NCBI GenBank assembly: GCA_030533415.1
Contig: JAUNJE010000007.1
Span: 17,870 to 81,869 of the forward strand
Origin: Eubacteriales bacterium
Lineage (GTDB): Bacteria > Bacillota > Clostridia > Oscillospirales > Oscillospiraceae
Length of the DNA stretch: 64,000 nt
Direction: 5' to 3'
Of the stretch, positions 14,897 through 63,176 are shown piece after piece. The notes beneath the pieces were generated by a model. It searched no databases. It was not told where the DNA came from and saw only the letters and a list, made by a program, of their open reading frames with translations. Both the position numbers and the translations under genes were made by a program. The stretch's first letter is position 1, and every line of letters starts with the position of its first letter.

Positions 14897-14907
14897 CGGG
14901 TATCCCA

Positions 14908-15010
14908 TATGTGCATCTTTCCCTACGACGGTACTAACCGTATCAGGTTCACGGGTCAGAGCCACAAAGCCCAATCTCAGCCGGATGCGTCCGGCCCCCC
15001 GAAGACTTAT
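14908..15010 (-). promoter_or_regulatory. TPP riboswitch aptamer (THI element)
   Basis: On the minus strand the conserved THI blocks occur in order: CTTCGGGGGG, GGCTGAGA, GACCCGTGAACCTGAT and GTAGGGAAAGAT. Binding of thiamine pyrophosphate would favour the terminator at 14850-14896 and lower thiT expression. Confidence 0.95.
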
Positions 15011-15030
15011 TTGCTGCGCGATCTGAGATT

Positions 15031-57718: not shown

Positions 57719-58132
57719 TTATAGAATCATGAAAAGCGTTCCCAATGTGATCAGCAGCGCGCCCACACCGGATTTCCAGGTGAATTTTTCGTGCAGGAAC
57801 ACGAATGCCAATATCAGCGTAATGACCACGCTGAGCTTGTCCACCGGCACCACCTTGGATGCTTCTCCCAGCTGCAGTGCCCGGTAATAGCACAGCCAGG
57901 ATGCCCCGGTGGCCAGTCCCGACAGGATCAGAAACAGCCAGCTTCTGCGGCTAATGGTAGAAATACCGTTCTGGGCATCCGTCAGGAACACCATGCCCCA
58001 GGCCAATACCAGTACCACCCCGGTGCGGATGGCGGTAGCCAGATGGGAGTTGACACCGTCAATGCCCAGTTTGGCAAGGATCGATGTCAGCGCGGCGAAA
58101 ACCGCTGAACCCAGTGCCAACAATAACCACAT
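57719..58132 (-). CDS. Single-domain EamA/DMT transporter
   Basis: A 137-residue membrane protein equal to one half of a usual EamA drug/metabolite transporter. It has about five helices: WLLLALGSAVFAALTSILAKLG, a second from TGVVLVLAWGMVF, WLFLILSGLATGASWLCYYRAL, VVITLILAFVFLHEKF and GALLITLGTLFMIL. Such half-size members act as dimers. Substrate unknown. The ATG follows CAGGAGGG. It is 18 bp downstream of the PsiE-like gene and forms an operon with it. Confidence 0.85.
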   Translation of the reverse strand: MWLLLALGSAVFAALTSILAKLGIDGVNSHLATAIRTGVVLVLAWGMVFLTDAQNGISTISRRSWLFLILSGLATGASWLCYYRALQLGEASKVVPVDKLSVVITLILAFVFLHEKFTWKSGVGALLITLGTLFMIL

Positions 58133-58150: not shown

Positions 58151-58606
58151 TTATTCCACTTCCACCATTTCTTCCTGCAGTTCACTGCGGCGGATCAGGA
58201 AACGGCGGATGGCGAACAGGCCCGCGATACAGGCGATGCAGGCAAGGTTGCTCCAGGGATCGTCGTGGCTCAGAATGACATGGCGGGTGATTGCCACGGT
58301 CAGGACCTCCAAAATATTTGCGGGGGTGGTGTCAATCAGCATCCGCACAAATTCCAGACCCACCACAATAGTCAGCAGATTGTGCAGGACATGCTCCACA
58401 TCGGAAAAATACCCGTCCTGGGTGAACATGTGGTAAATCTCCAGTCCCAGGGCCGCAACCAGCACGATCACGGTCAGTGCCGCGATGCACAGCTCCAGCA
58501 TGTGCAGGATCCTGCGGAACAGGCGTTCCACCCTGTGGTCATGGGCTTCCAGCTTTTTCTCGGTGATGTGGTTTCTTTCACCGGTGGAATGGGGGGTGCT
58601 GTTCAC
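58151..58606 (-). CDS. PsiE-like inner membrane protein
   Basis: A 151-residue protein with four hydrophobic helices (about 36-55, 70-92, 103-112 and 119-133). The segment LLTIVVGLEFVRMLIDTTPANILEVLTVAITRHVIL (within 72-112) resembles the phosphate-starvation-inducible PsiE family, whose function is not known. The start is GTG at 58606 behind TAGGAGG. The N-terminal 30 residues are charged and cytosolic. It precedes the EamA gene in a two-gene operon. Confidence 0.6.
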   Translation of the reverse strand: MNSTPHSTGERNHITEKKLEAHDHRVERLFRRILHMLELCIAALTVIVLVAALGLEIYHMFTQDGYFSDVEHVLHNLLTIVVGLEFVRMLIDTTPANILEVLTVAITRHVILSHDDPWSNLACIACIAGLFAIRRFLIRRSELQEEMVEVE

Positions 58607-58689: not shown

Positions 58690-61224
58690 TTATTTACGGA
58701 AATGGGCCTGCATTTCCTGCCGGGCCGATTCCACCTCTTCCCGCAGCTCCCTTGCGGACATCCGCAGAACGCCGCTGCGGAAGGAGGACAGCTGCACCAG
58801 GCTGTCAGAGGAGGCCACCCGGACGGCATAGTTGCTGCCGATCTCATAGGCCAGGGCCTCGATATAGGCGTCTGCGGTCTGCCCTTCTTTGGTAAACACC
58901 ACCTGGATATTGTGGAATTGGCTCTTTTCTCCCGGATTCCCCTTCTGCTTATAGCCGTCAAATACCACCACCAGCCGGTATTTGGTAAAGCCCGCATAGC
59001 TGGACAGGATATCGCATAGCTGCCGCCGGGCCGCGTCCAGGTCCTCTTTTGCCTGGGCCGCCAAGTCCTCCCAGGCAAAAATCATGTTATAGCCGTCCAC
59101 GATGATATATTTTTGCTTAGGCGCCCGGATGGGAACTTCCTCCGTGGCCGGACGGTTGGCAGCGGGACGGTAGAGAGGGCGGCGAATGGGACCAAACTCC
59201 CGCTCCATGATTTTTTCCAGCTCCTTGTCATCCACCCGGATGTTGCGGGTGAGGATCTGGGGGGCTTTTTCCTCCTTCAGGCCGCTTTCCAGGTGCATGT
59301 AATCCTTCACCTGCTGCCATTTCACGGTGAAGCCGGCACCATGGGCGCAGAAAACGGAGTCGGGGGTGTTGTCCAGGTCGGCTTCGGGATCGTAACCGGT
59401 TTCCGCCAGCACTGCCTCCGTATTGTGGCAGGGGGCGTAGCCGTGAAGAGACAGCTGCAGCCTGCCCCGTCCCTGGGTATAGGCCGCCAGGGTATCCGCA
59501 TAATCTTTTACCTCTGACGCGGGGACAAGGCCCTTTAAGGTTGAAAGGTTACCGGCGGCCTCCGGGGCGTCGAATTCGCCGCCCATGGCCCGGATGTCGG
59601 TGATGGCCCTTCCGATCTGCTCTGTGGGCATGGTCAGGGCAAAGCCGTACCAGGGCTCCAGCAGGATGGACTTTGCCTGCATCAGGCCCTGGCGAACGGC
59701 CCGGTAGGTGGCCTGCCGGAAGTCTCCGCCCTCCGTGTGCTTTAAGTGGGCTTTTCCCACCAAAAGCGTGATTTTCATGTCCGTAATGGGCGCACCGGTG
59801 AGCACGCCCCGGTGAATCTTTTCTTCCAGATGGGTCAGGATCAGGCGCTGGTAGTTTCCATCCAGCACATCCGTGGAGCAGGCGGTGCCGAATACCAGTC
59901 CGCTTCCCCGGGGCAGCGGCTCCAAAAGCAGGTGAACCTCGGCATAGTGGCGCAGAGGCTCAAAATGTCCCACGCCCTCTACGGTGTTTTCAATGGTTTC
60001 CTTATAAAAAATCCGGCGGTCGTCCAGCGTGATATCCAGGCCAAAGCGCTGCTGAACCAGGCTGCGAAAAATTTCCAGCTGGACTCGGCCCATAATCTGG
60101 ACGTGAATTTGTCCGTTTTCCCACAGCAAATGGAGTTGGGGGTCTTCCTCCTCCAACTGGCGCAGCTTTGGCAGGACCAGGGATGGGTCGCTGCCCTTGG
60201 GCAGATTTACCCGGTAGGTCATGACAGGTTCCAGGGCATAGGGCTGCCCTGCCGGCTCTGCCCCCAGGGCCTGTCCCGCGAAGGTCCCGGTCAGGCCCGT
60301 GACCGCCGCTGTTTCCCCTGGAAGAATTTCCTCCCGAAGGGTGAATTTTTCGGCGGAATAGCGGCGAAGCTGGACTGCCTTTTCTTCTAGCTGCTCACCA
60401 TTTGAGTTTACATAACACAAGGGAGCGCGGACTTTCAGGCTTCCGCCCGTGACCTTCAGCCAGGTAAGACGGTTGCCCTGGGGATCCCGGGAGATTTTGT
60501 AGACCCGGGCCGCAAATGCTTCCGGGTATTCCCTGACCGGGGCATAGTGGTCCAAAACCTCCAAAAGCCTGTCTACACCGTCCAGTTTCAGGCCGGAACC
60601 AAAGCAGCAGGGGAACAGCTTCCGCTTGGAAACCAATCCCCGGAGGTTCCCTTCCGTGACGGTGCCGCTTTCCAGATAATTTTCCAGCAGCGCCTCATCG
60701 CACAGGGCGGCGTTTTCCGCGACGGAGGCGAAATCCGCGCCAAAGTCCACGCAGGCGGGAGACAGCTGCTCCTGCAGCTGGGCCAGCAGCTTCCCCTTCT
60801 CCGTTCCGGGCAAGTCCATTTTGTTGATAAACAGAAATACCGGAACATGATAACGCTCCAGCAGCCGCCATAGGGTCAGAGTATGGGCCTGGACCCCGTC
60901 GGTGCCGCTGATGACCAGCACGGCGCAGTCCAAAATGGGCATCGTCCGTTCGGCTTCGGTGGAAAAATCCACATGCCCGGGGGTATCCACCAGGGTGATT
61001 TCCCTGCTGGCGGTTTTCAAAAGGGCCTGCTTGGAAAAAATCGTAATGCCCCTGGCCCGCTCCAGGGCATGGGTATCGAGATAGGCGTCCTTGTGATCCA
61101 CCCGTCCCAGGGTGCGGCGCGCGCCGGAGCAATAGAGCAGGGCTTCGCTTAAGGTGGTTTTGCCCGCGTCAACATGGGCCAATAGAGCAATACTACATGG
61201 CGCTTTTTTCGGTTCATTACTCAT
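58690..61224 (-). CDS. TetM/EF-G-like translational GTPase fused to a YacP/Rae1-type NYN nuclease domain
   Basis: An 844-residue two-part protein. Residues 1 to about 640 are a translational GTPase of the ribosomal-protection (TetM/TetO) branch: AHVDAGKT at 16-23, RGITI at 58-62, DTPGH at 80-84 and NKMD at 134-137, then domains II-V. The domain IV tip region reads KHTEGGDFRQATYRA and lacks the TetM loop that displaces tetracycline. Residues 704-844 form an NYN/PIN-like domain of the YacP type, with acidic motifs IIVDGYNMIF, VVVFDGYK, QTADAYIEAL and VASSDSLVQ. In Bacillus, YacP is Rae1, an A-site mRNA endonuclease. The fusion suggests a GTPase that delivers or positions a nuclease on the ribosome (inference). 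It probably does not confer tetracycline resistance. Confidence 0.9.
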   Translation of the reverse strand: MSNEPKKAPCSIALLAHVDAGKTTLSEALLYCSGARRTLGRVDHKDAYLDTHALERARGITIFSKQALLKTASREITLVDTPGHVDFSTEAERTMPILDCAVLVISGTDGVQAHTLTLWRLLERYHVPVFLFINKMDLPGTEKGKLLAQLQEQLSPACVDFGADFASVAENAALCDEALLENYLESGTVTEGNLRGLVSKRKLFPCCFGSGLKLDGVDRLLEVLDHYAPVREYPEAFAARVYKISRDPQGNRLTWLKVTGGSLKVRAPLCYVNSNGEQLEEKAVQLRRYSAEKFTLREEILPGETAAVTGLTGTFAGQALGAEPAGQPYALEPVMTYRVNLPKGSDPSLVLPKLRQLEEEDPQLHLLWENGQIHVQIMGRVQLEIFRSLVQQRFGLDITLDDRRIFYKETIENTVEGVGHFEPLRHYAEVHLLLEPLPRGSGLVFGTACSTDVLDGNYQRLILTHLEEKIHRGVLTGAPITDMKITLLVGKAHLKHTEGGDFRQATYRAVRQGLMQAKSILLEPWYGFALTMPTEQIGRAITDIRAMGGEFDAPEAAGNLSTLKGLVPASEVKDYADTLAAYTQGRGRLQLSLHGYAPCHNTEAVLAETGYDPEADLDNTPDSVFCAHGAGFTVKWQQVKDYMHLESGLKEEKAPQILTRNIRVDDKELEKIMEREFGPIRRPLYRPAANRPATEEVPIRAPKQKYIIVDGYNMIFAWEDLAAQAKEDLDAARRQLCDILSSYAGFTKYRLVVVFDGYKQKGNPGEKSQFHNIQVVFTKEGQTADAYIEALAYEIGSNYAVRVASSDSLVQLSSFRSGVLRMSARELREEVESARQEMQAHFRK

Positions 61225-61352
61225 AACAACATGGCCCCCTGACCTGTTTCGTAAGGGTATTATAGCAGGTCAAGGGGCTTTCGTCGATAGAATTTATGGA
61301 ATTTGGAATAAAATGTAGTCCTGGCGCAGGGAGATGCGATCACATCAGCTTC

Positions 61353-63176
61353 TTAGCACGCCAGCCATCGGAAACCATATCCGGTCAAGTCAATATTACG
61401 CAAATCTTCTGCGCCTCCAAATATCAGATTCAAGACTTGTCCTTCACCCAAATTACAGGTGACCGGCTTTTCTGAGAAATTAAACAGCAGCAGTAATTCT
61501 TCCCCATTGTACTTCCGGGAAATGCCCAGGACGGAGTCACAGCCAGTATCCAGAACAGTCACTATGGCGTCTGAGCGGAAGGCAGGGTGTTCTGTGCGGA
61601 TAGTTTCCAGCTTGCGCAGGAACGAAAAGGCTTTTCCCTGTACTGTAGAAATATCCGTCCGTAGCGCCGCTTTCTCCCAGTCGAAATTACCTCGATGCAG
61701 ATAGCGGCTGTCATCCATTTTATCCGGATCTGCTTTATAAGAATTGTCGTTAAACTGGGCAACCTCATCACCGCTATACAGAACCGGGATGCCGCTCTGG
61801 CTGAACATCCAGGCGTGGAGCATCCAGAAACAAAGCAGGGATTGATCCATCAGTGCATCCTCTTTTGTTTCTGCTGCTTTTTCCAGACCTGTCAGAGATG
61901 CTGTGGTTCCGCAGAGGCGGGCATCCCCCAGCCTGGGATCATCGTTATACAATTCGCCTTTTGACCAGCTGCCGGGGAGCTTTCCTGTGAACCAGTCGTT
62001 CAGGTATTTTTTGTGGGCTACTTCCGTGATGCTGAACTGTTCCAGCCAGGGATAATCCAGACCCCAGCCGATGTCATCGTGACAGCGCAGATAGTTCTGG
62101 AACAGACAGGTTTCCGGCAGCGCCGTGACCTGCTCCATCTGCCGTTTTAGCAGTCTGACATCTCTTGTGGCAACGGTGTGCCAGGTGGTGCACATGGTGG
62201 TAACGTTATAGAGCATATCGCACTCAGGTTTCGCCACAGTGCCAAAGTAGGGAGCCACCTTCTTGGGTTCCATGACTACCTCACCCAGCAGCAGGACACT
62301 GGGACAGACGATCTGGACAGCCAAATGCATCATGCGAACCAGCGTGTGCACCTTGGGCAGGTTCCGACAGTCGGTACCCAGCTCCTTCCAGATGTAGGGC
62401 ACAGCATCCAGCCGGATCACATCCATACCCTGATTGGCAAGGTACAGCAGATTTTCCACCATGTCATTGAATACCATGGGATTGGCATAGTTTAAGTCCC
62501 ACTGGAAGGGATAGAAGGAGGTCATAACAATCTGACCATCCTCCAGTTTGGTAAAGTTGCCAGGAGCCGTGGTGGGAAAAACCTGAGGCACAGTCTTTTC
62601 AAATTCATTTGGAATATCCCAATTATCATAGAAAAAATAACGGCTTCTGGCCACCGGATCCCCGGCTCGGGCAGCCTTTGCCCATGCGTGTTCCTCGCTG
62701 GTGTGGTTCAACACAAAGTCCAGGCACAGCACCATCCCTTTTTCATGGCAGGCATCTGCCAGCTCAGCGAGATCTTCCATGGTTCCGAGATCGGGACGGA
62801 CCTTGCGGAAATCGGATACGGCATAACCGCCGTCAGACTTGCCTTTGGGGGAATCCAACAGAGGCATCAGGTGTAAATAGTTGATGCCGCATTCCGTAAG
62901 ATAGGATAGCTTCTCCTGCACACCCTTCAACGTTCCACCGAAGTTGGCTGGGTACATCATCATGCCCAGCAGCTTATTGGAGCGATACCAGTCCGGCTCC
63001 GCCAGACGTTTTTCATCGATAGCCCGCAGGGCATCCTTCCGAGCATTCCACTGTGTCTCCAGCATCTGAACAAAGTAATCAAATGCTTCCATATCATTAT
63101 GGTAAAGCTCACAATATAGCCATTTCAGTTCATCATAGCAATTATCCAGACGAGCAGTAAAAACAGAATTCTCCAT
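61353..63176 (-). CDS. Amylosucrase-like GH13 alpha-glucanotransferase/hydrolase
   Basis: A 607-residue cytosolic GH13 enzyme. The helical N-terminal domain (1-65), the MMYPANFGGTLKGVQEKLSYL start of the barrel, DFVLNHTSEEH, the nucleophile in VIRLDAVPY (D257), acid/base in LLLGEVVM (E299) and RCHDDIGWGL (D367) match GH13 subfamily 4 (amylosucrase, sucrose hydrolase). A C-terminal beta domain ends the protein. Substrate is likely sucrose, but sucrose hydrolase and related activities cannot be separated by eye. Start at 63176 behind GAGGAAGG. It lies downstream of a sugar ABC ATPase, separated by a terminator. Confidence 0.88.
   Translation of the reverse strand: MENSVFTARLDNCYDELKWLYCELYHNDMEAFDYFVQMLETQWNARKDALRAIDEKRLAEPDWYRSNKLLGMMMYPANFGGTLKGVQEKLSYLTECGINYLHLMPLLDSPKGKSDGGYAVSDFRKVRPDLGTMEDLAELADACHEKGMVLCLDFVLNHTSEEHAWAKAARAGDPVARSRYFFYDNWDIPNEFEKTVPQVFPTTAPGNFTKLEDGQIVMTSFYPFQWDLNYANPMVFNDMVENLLYLANQGMDVIRLDAVPYIWKELGTDCRNLPKVHTLVRMMHLAVQIVCPSVLLLGEVVMEPKKVAPYFGTVAKPECDMLYNVTTMCTTWHTVATRDVRLLKRQMEQVTALPETCLFQNYLRCHDDIGWGLDYPWLEQFSITEVAHKKYLNDWFTGKLPGSWSKGELYNDDPRLGDARLCGTTASLTGLEKAAETKEDALMDQSLLCFWMLHAWMFSQSGIPVLYSGDEVAQFNDNSYKADPDKMDDSRYLHRGNFDWEKAALRTDISTVQGKAFSFLRKLETIRTEHPAFRSDAIVTVLDTGCDSVLGISRKYNGEELLLLFNFSEKPVTCNLGEGQVLNLIFGGAEDLRNIDLTGYGFRWLAC

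Follow-up and report, generated by a model that had tools for sequence, protein, structure and literature searches.

EF-G and TetM enter the ribosomal A site, the same site that is targeted by Rae1, while RelE-type nucleases are the products of toxin genes, with a different fold and no GTPase. According to the accessible portions of the reports, Rae1 attacks A-site mRNA in a translation-dependent manner (PMC12320835, PMC10100781), and mRNA is cut in this site by RelE-type nucleases as well (PMC12320835), the kind of cleavage that is predicted below for the protein described here. The closest described architecture is that of Atkinson 2015, in which, as far as the available part of the text goes, Tet proteins of ten Clostridiales species were found to have acquired a YacP-like NYN domain, and RNase activity together with antibiotic resistance was suggested (PMC4342817). 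The present protein, likewise clostridial, has a YacP-like NYN domain after a Tet-like GTPase, and it agrees with those fusions, as they appear in that part of the text, in both domains, their order and the bacterial group (PMC4342817). The architecture itself is already known, having been in print since 2015. The first-pass annotation knew of no experimental study of such a fusion, and no experiment on a GTPase-NYN fusion was found in literature searches that had the main Rae1 papers outside their reach; with the architecture in print, the fusion is less novel than it had been rated (Atkinson 2015, PMC4342817, in its accessible part). As far as these searches reach, the spread of the fusion, the near-exclusion of a separate yacP gene, the loss of the Rae1 tail, a linker motif and a distinct domain IV tip are additions of this study.

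Gene Organization and Surroundings

Within the whole stretch of DNA analysed (64,000 nucleotides, hereafter the window), positions 58690-61224 (-) form a single uninterrupted ORF of 844 codons plus stop, with the ATG at 61224 and the stop codon ending at 58690. The 844-aa protein begins with an EF-G/Tet-type translational GTPase (residues 1-602), to which a clade-specific C-terminal block (603-650) is added; a linker then leads to the NYN nuclease domain of YacP/Rae1 type (707-841). The source genome (88% complete) has this fusion as its sole YacP match and also encodes a separate EF-G-like protein.

A promoter-like site (TCGACG-17-TATAAT, the second hexamer being preceded by TG) lies at 61259-61287 (-); it is a consensus match only, and four sites of that type occur in the region against 2.4 expected. 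Leader control was looked for in the gap of 128 bases up to the upstream gene, and no terminator-like site was present there. A tiny ORF (ATG TTG TTA TGA, 61221-61232, -) directly precedes the fusion gene, and the overlap of its stop with the ATG at 61224 reflects either translational coupling or chance. By profile matches, the neighbors on the same strand (-) are an EamA-domain protein of 137 aa (57719-58132), a PsiE-like protein (58151-58606) and an alpha-amylase-family enzyme (61353-63176). Elsewhere in the window, a TPP riboswitch was found at 14903-15011 (-; 72.2 bits). A survey of the neighbors of 120 fused loci, covering ORFs of at least 100 aa and up to four per side, gave no conserved gene partner; the commonest family, ATP-binding transporter-like, was near 15 of them at scattered positions. 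There was no PADLOC match to a defence system.

The GTPase Part and Tetracycline Resistance

The GTPase part (59419-61224, -) shares the domain plan and G motifs of EF-G, and alignment showed the motifs to be intact (G1 AHVDAGKT, G3 DTPGH including its histidine, G4 NKMD). Pfam placed GTP_EFTU at residues 11-229 (3.1e-49), EFG_IV at 405-518 (2.8e-19) and EFG_C at 521-602 (5.3e-17). Domains II and III were matched under the Pfam cut-offs (19.8 and 23.1 bits vs. 27), yet the TetM and TetO PDB chains align across residues 11-597/599, in agreement with the full translational GTPase described in the first-pass annotation. The best solved relatives of this part were EF-G, TetM and TetO, and TetM, TetO and TetW, which are likewise GTPases with EF-G-like domains, showed about 27-29% identity across residues 11-598. 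H84 and the P-loop lysine were kept in 44 of the 44 fused rows of the GTPase tree, and T23 and R58 in 43 each; in a 73-row alignment of named fusions (A3), which took in 72 of the 80 named loci, H84 and K495 were conserved in at least 90% of rows, not in all.

The two loops at the tip of domain IV were strongly conserved within the group. G417, G419, H420, E422, P423, L424, H426 and Y427 of loop I (residues 416-430; 59935-59979, -) occurred in all 64 fused and unfused tree rows, as did K495, H496, T497, G499, G500 and D501 of loop III (residues 490-503, GKAHLKHTEGGDFR; 59716-59757, -), where H493 was kept in 63. Loop III reads AHLKHTEGGD in the fusion and YYSPVSTPAD in tet(M), tet(W) and tet(O), so the Tet-type loop III is absent in the alignment with these three genes, as had been read from the letters of the gene, and the EF-G-type loop III is not in the fusion either. 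Judged from these alignments, the domain IV tip is a third type, neither Tet(M/W/O) nor EF-G. The C-terminal block (residues 603-650; 59275-59418, -) was common to fused and unfused members and without equivalent in the aligned Tet and EF-G rows; a Pfam search with it gave no family at a useful E-value. Two variants of the GTPase were also seen, namely a 1153-aa fusion with about 300 extra N-terminal residues, in which the GTPase match starts at residue 309 (L075, 3482-6943), and one genome (G154) with two copies of the unfused GTPase (L235, L236).

Kinship with the Tet proteins, and the suggestion already in print in the accessible part of Atkinson 2015 (PMC4342817), raise the question of whether the protein is a resistance factor against tetracycline or another ribosome inhibitor to which an RNase has been added. 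With the NCBIfam model for Tet ribosomal protection (NF012153), the fusion scored 378.3 bits against a cut-off of 775, while the tet(M) control reached 872.6; within the source genome, the same model gave 374.9 for the fusion and 372.1 for the EF-G-like protein, so the fusion does no better than the cell's own EF-G-like protein. The EF-G model TIGR00484 gave 261.7 bits against a cut-off of 659.4. By NCBI's family threshold, the fusion is not a tetracycline-resistance gene, and an automatic label of that kind would mislead, as had been cautioned. The fusion differs from TetM, TetO and TetW in the domain IV tip and the C-terminal block as well as in lying far under the resistance family cut-off; it fell outside the Tet(M/W/O) clade in two trees, within a clade of its own, and a YacP match was present in 28 of 36 same-genus relatives, as for a core gene. 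Identity as a resistance gene is unsupported by family score, tip loops and tree, and we regard a drug-resistance factor with an added RNase as very improbable. For annotation, this means that counts of tetracycline resistance should leave out this gene, which is chromosomal and common in gut Clostridia.

The NYN Domain and the Linker

The nuclease domain (residues 704-844; 58693-59115, -) was recognized as NYN_YacP (PF05991) at residues 707-841 (2.3e-44, 151.7 bits vs. a cut-off of 24.6), and residues 707-844 align with the solved B. subtilis YacP (5mq8, 5mq9; 1.4e-23). D710, D756, D785 and D807 correspond to D7, D53, D81 and D104 of the YacP chain, numbered by hand from the alignment, and the two proteins thus share both the domain and the four aspartates, which we take to be catalytic. 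The in-frame YacP-type domain with its acidic residues, as first proposed, was therefore borne out, and the retention of these residues extended to 120 of 120 fusions and to 20 of 20 stand-alone proteins.

In B. subtilis, Rae1 is encoded beside yacO/rlmB as a small protein on its own, in contrast to the NYN domain of the fusion, which is tethered to a GTPase and lies elsewhere in the genome; the C-terminal EKLRR tail of Rae1 is also missing from the fusion. In all 20 stand-alone YacP proteins, 41-46 residues follow the position of residue 829, whereas 44 of the 120 fusions have at most 20 there; the window protein has 15 and lacks the LEKLRR-type motif. This C-terminal motif was present in 15 of 20 stand-alone proteins and 6 of 120 fusions, and a looser pattern in 17 of 20 and 18 of 120, although independent losses of the tail are fewer than these counts suggest because kin share losses. 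The last arginine of EKLRR is R166 of B. subtilis YacP (chain numbering of 5mq9), and in the available part of the report R166P of Rae1 is a suppressor of efp, grouped among loss-of-function alleles (PMC6613710). From these comparisons, the Rae1 tail may be a docking element whose role would have been taken over by the GTPase in the fusions.

The linker was 51-141 residues long across the 120 fusions (median 71) and has 55 residues in the window protein. It carries a short motif around ELxxIFERTYG, found by pattern search at residues 666-682 (DKELEKIMEREFGPIRR; 59179-59229, -), which a strict pattern detected in 67 of the 120 fusions and a loose one in 80; the strict pattern occurred in none of 20 unfused GTPases and none of 20 stand-alone nucleases.

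Intactness and Spread of the Fusion

A single ORF contained both parts at all 40 loci retrieved from other genomes and, in named genomes, at 79 of the best 80 of 588 related stretches. Frame length was the basis on which the 40 fused loci, like 20 stand-alone ones, were selected; the 40 had their NYN in a long frame and hence show the content of that frame. Given both counts, the join is not a sequencing accident; a frameshift or an assembly artefact is unsupported, and a division into two genes by a frameshift, which had been named as a possible refutation, was not found. Among these best 80 loci, the fusion occurred in Intestinimonas butyriciproducens, Ruminococcus flavefaciens FD-1, a Butyrivibrio, Fusibacter sp. 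3D3 and Anaerovorax odorimutans, and the nearest named relative among the best 80 of 588 was an Oscillospiraceae assembly with 68% identity (L135). One Monoglobus record bears the product name 'translation factor GTPase family protein'.

In the 28 same-genus relatives with a YacP match, 26 matches lay in a frame of at least 843 aa; of the two exceptions, one was on a short contig (G014) and one was interrupted (G023). The eight relatives without a YacP match were 53-87% complete and also had no GTPase match at 1e-60. At class level, 293 genomes, many of them assemblies and the source genome included, were searched separately with the nuclease and the GTPase. By the frames given by the search, the fusion was present in 103 (99 by frame length and four interrupted by contig ends or frameshifts but scored fused), an unfused GTPase together with YacP in 15, an unfused GTPase without a YacP match in 6, YacP without this GTPase in 75, and neither in 94. 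These counts include 43 of the 193 YacP genomes for which no frame with a YacP match was listed, of which 14 and the source genome were scored fused since their GTPase frame exceeded 800 aa, and 28 were scored as having a separate YacP with the frame not seen (27 if G347, assigned to unfused GTPase plus YacP, is kept apart). In G228 and some others the two parts gave unequal frame lengths, and G175 was moved by hand to the group without the GTPase because its GTPase is on the tet-like branch. Set against the ten species given in the accessible part of Atkinson 2015 (PMC4342817), the fusion thus occurs in 103 of the 293 genomes of the class and forms a single clade separate from Tet(M/W/O). In a draw from the phylum, the GTPase was matched at 1e-150 in 35 of 398 genomes.

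An origin as a phage gene was considered and rejected, as none of 49 viral-contig loci matches the NYN domain; in the closest, two of them at 48% and a third at 41%, the match is confined to residues 13-646 and 11-644, and a few loci are contig-end fragments. Fusions were also seen in two unverified 'Bacteriophage sp.' scaffolds from human faeces (MT835563.1, 5397-7958, L337; MT835514.1, 15291-17795); the one that was opened carries no annotation, and both are probably bacterial DNA. Two plasmid records covered at least 80% of the fusion protein, one of them a 518-kb Monoglobus record.

Phylogeny

The larger GTPase tree contained 34 of the 40 fused loci (six same-genus near copies were omitted), nine of the 80 named loci and the window protein, and these 44 fused rows came out as a single clade with SH-aLRT support of 100, next to 20 unfused proteins. 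The 64 fused and unfused rows together stood apart from Tet(M/W/O) and tet-like proteins, so of the TetM-likeness first proposed, the alignment with the TetM chain stands, but TetM is only a cousin. In a smaller bootstrap tree, made from 36 of the 80 rows of the larger one, support was 100/99 for the fused clade and 100/100 for fused plus unfused. The unity of the unfused group was weak (74; 77/52), and the fusions may therefore have arisen within it; the position of the whole clade, nearer to Tet or to EF-G, differed between the two midpoint-rooted trees. Four further loci (L249, L253, L254, L255) made up an unfused tet-like branch, in which L249 and L253 have an H..H[ST]...D loop III resembling that of the fusion clade; L249 scored 606.4 bits, below the resistance cut-off.

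In the NYN tree (70 of 140 rows), the fused domains grouped together, with one stand-alone NYN among them (L107, 4787-5308; genome G245). This genome has an unfused GTPase on another contig (L240, 4487-6436), which looks like a fusion that came apart, and the NYN being separate again shows that the fusion is not indispensable.

Fate of the Separate yacP Gene

A separate YacP accompanied the fusion in 1 of 103 fused genomes, compared with 90 of 190 non-fused genomes (Fisher 2e-20), which agrees with the expectation that fused genomes would lack a separate yacP (102 of 103). The one genome keeping both (G309) has the gene as rlmB-yacP-sigH, and the second YacP matches in G166, G215 and G244, of about 21 bits, were under the family cut-off. 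Among non-fused genomes, those with the unfused GTPase had YacP in 15 of 21 cases and the remainder in 75 of 169 (p 0.02, odds ratio 3.1); as genomes are kin, both Fisher p values are guides only.

At 20 stand-alone loci, an rlmB-like gene preceded yacP in 17 and a sigH-like gene followed it in 19, the names of these neighbors, and of an RNase-III-like one, being assigned from sequence. The neighborhood of yacO/rae1 in B. subtilis, as given in the available parts of two reports, supports the gene names (PMC6613710, PMC8266666). The surroundings of rlmB were checked in 14 fused genomes and one unfused genome (G245). Six of the fused ones (G076, G229, G321, G333, G145, G316) have a sigH-like gene 86-592 bases after rlmB and no NYN match in the interval; in seven others, including the source genome, and in G245, the 1.5 kb examined beside rlmB contained neither sigH nor NYN. 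The best explanation is that the fusion has taken the place of a separate yacP/rae1 gene in these bacteria.

The rlmB-like and RNase-III-like genes adjoining stand-alone yacP (names assigned from sequence) could also point to maturation or degradation of rRNA or tRNA, with the GTPase bringing the nuclease to ribosomal particles. Such a role would fit an older proposal for NYN domains cited in the available text of Atkinson 2015 (PMC4342817). However, the B. subtilis Rae1 studies, in their accessible parts, report mRNA cleavage on translating ribosomes (PMC10100781, PMC12320835, PMC6613710), and both proteins are missing from 94 of the 293 class genomes, which would be odd for a maturation enzyme without a substitute. 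We consider this role improbable.

Discussion

Considering these comparisons, we think it probable that the protein is a GTPase-delivered ribosome endonuclease, carrying out Rae1-type mRNA cleavage on ribosomes with an open A site. In the model proposed, the EF-G-like GTPase would bind a paused or stalled ribosome whose A site is open, and domain IV would extend to the decoding center through its own tip. Domain IV and the NYN domain cannot share the A site at once, so the simplest scheme is one in which they act in turn: binding, GTP hydrolysis, movement and cutting. Upon hydrolysis the GTPase would leave or rearrange, and the NYN domain on its tether of about 50-140 residues would then act like Rae1, cutting mRNA within the A site or beside it. 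The ribosome would thereby be committed to rescue (e.g., by tmRNA) and the transcript to decay. The binding to ribosomes, the cleavage with its position, the control by GTP and stalling as the trigger are what we infer.

A fuller version, which we put forward tentatively, is that a distinct GTPase branch, neither EF-G nor Tet, might recognize a particular stalled state through its own domain IV tip, with GTP hydrolysis timing the tethered Rae1 nuclease. The protein would thus be an A-site mRNA endonuclease gated by GTP, which took the place of free Rae1 in much of the Clostridia, with the GTPase assuming the docking role of the Rae1 tail. For the GTPase-delivered endonuclease as such speak the retained GTPase and NYN residues, the near-exclusion of a separate YacP, the link between unfused GTPase and YacP among non-fused genomes, the rlmB-sigH arrangement without NYN, the loss of the tail and the described action of Rae1 in the A site. 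Counting against it are the 6 of 21 unfused-GTPase genomes without a YacP match, G309 keeping both genes, the split in G245 and the tail motif found loosely in 18 of 120 fusions.

Some of the same observations suit a different view, in which one chain does two jobs: the GTPase would resolve a particular stall or remove a ligand, the NYN domain would cut mRNA independently as an ordinary Rae1, and the fusion would only keep equal amounts of them near the ribosome. The GTPase evidently has a use without the nuclease, as in the six genomes lacking a YacP match, while 15 of 21 encode both as separate genes; G245 has a fused-clade NYN as a separate gene with an unfused GTPase elsewhere, and the linker varies from 51 to 141 residues. 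The six genomes and the separated parts in G245 leave room for independent action. Against it, one fused clade has kept the join over many families, the linker motif is conserved in 67 of 120 fusions, and the tail motif was lost only in the fused group, which suggests that the NYN domain depends on the GTPase. We therefore give independent action of the two parts a rather low probability.

For the GTPase-delivered nuclease, the wider interest lies in how nucleases coupled to translation, Rae1 among them, locate the ribosomes on which they should act. The fusion would provide a one-protein system for testing joint action on the ribosome. Its being kept across many Clostridia, with the free nuclease gene absent, is genetic evidence that the GTPase and the nuclease act on the same ribosome.
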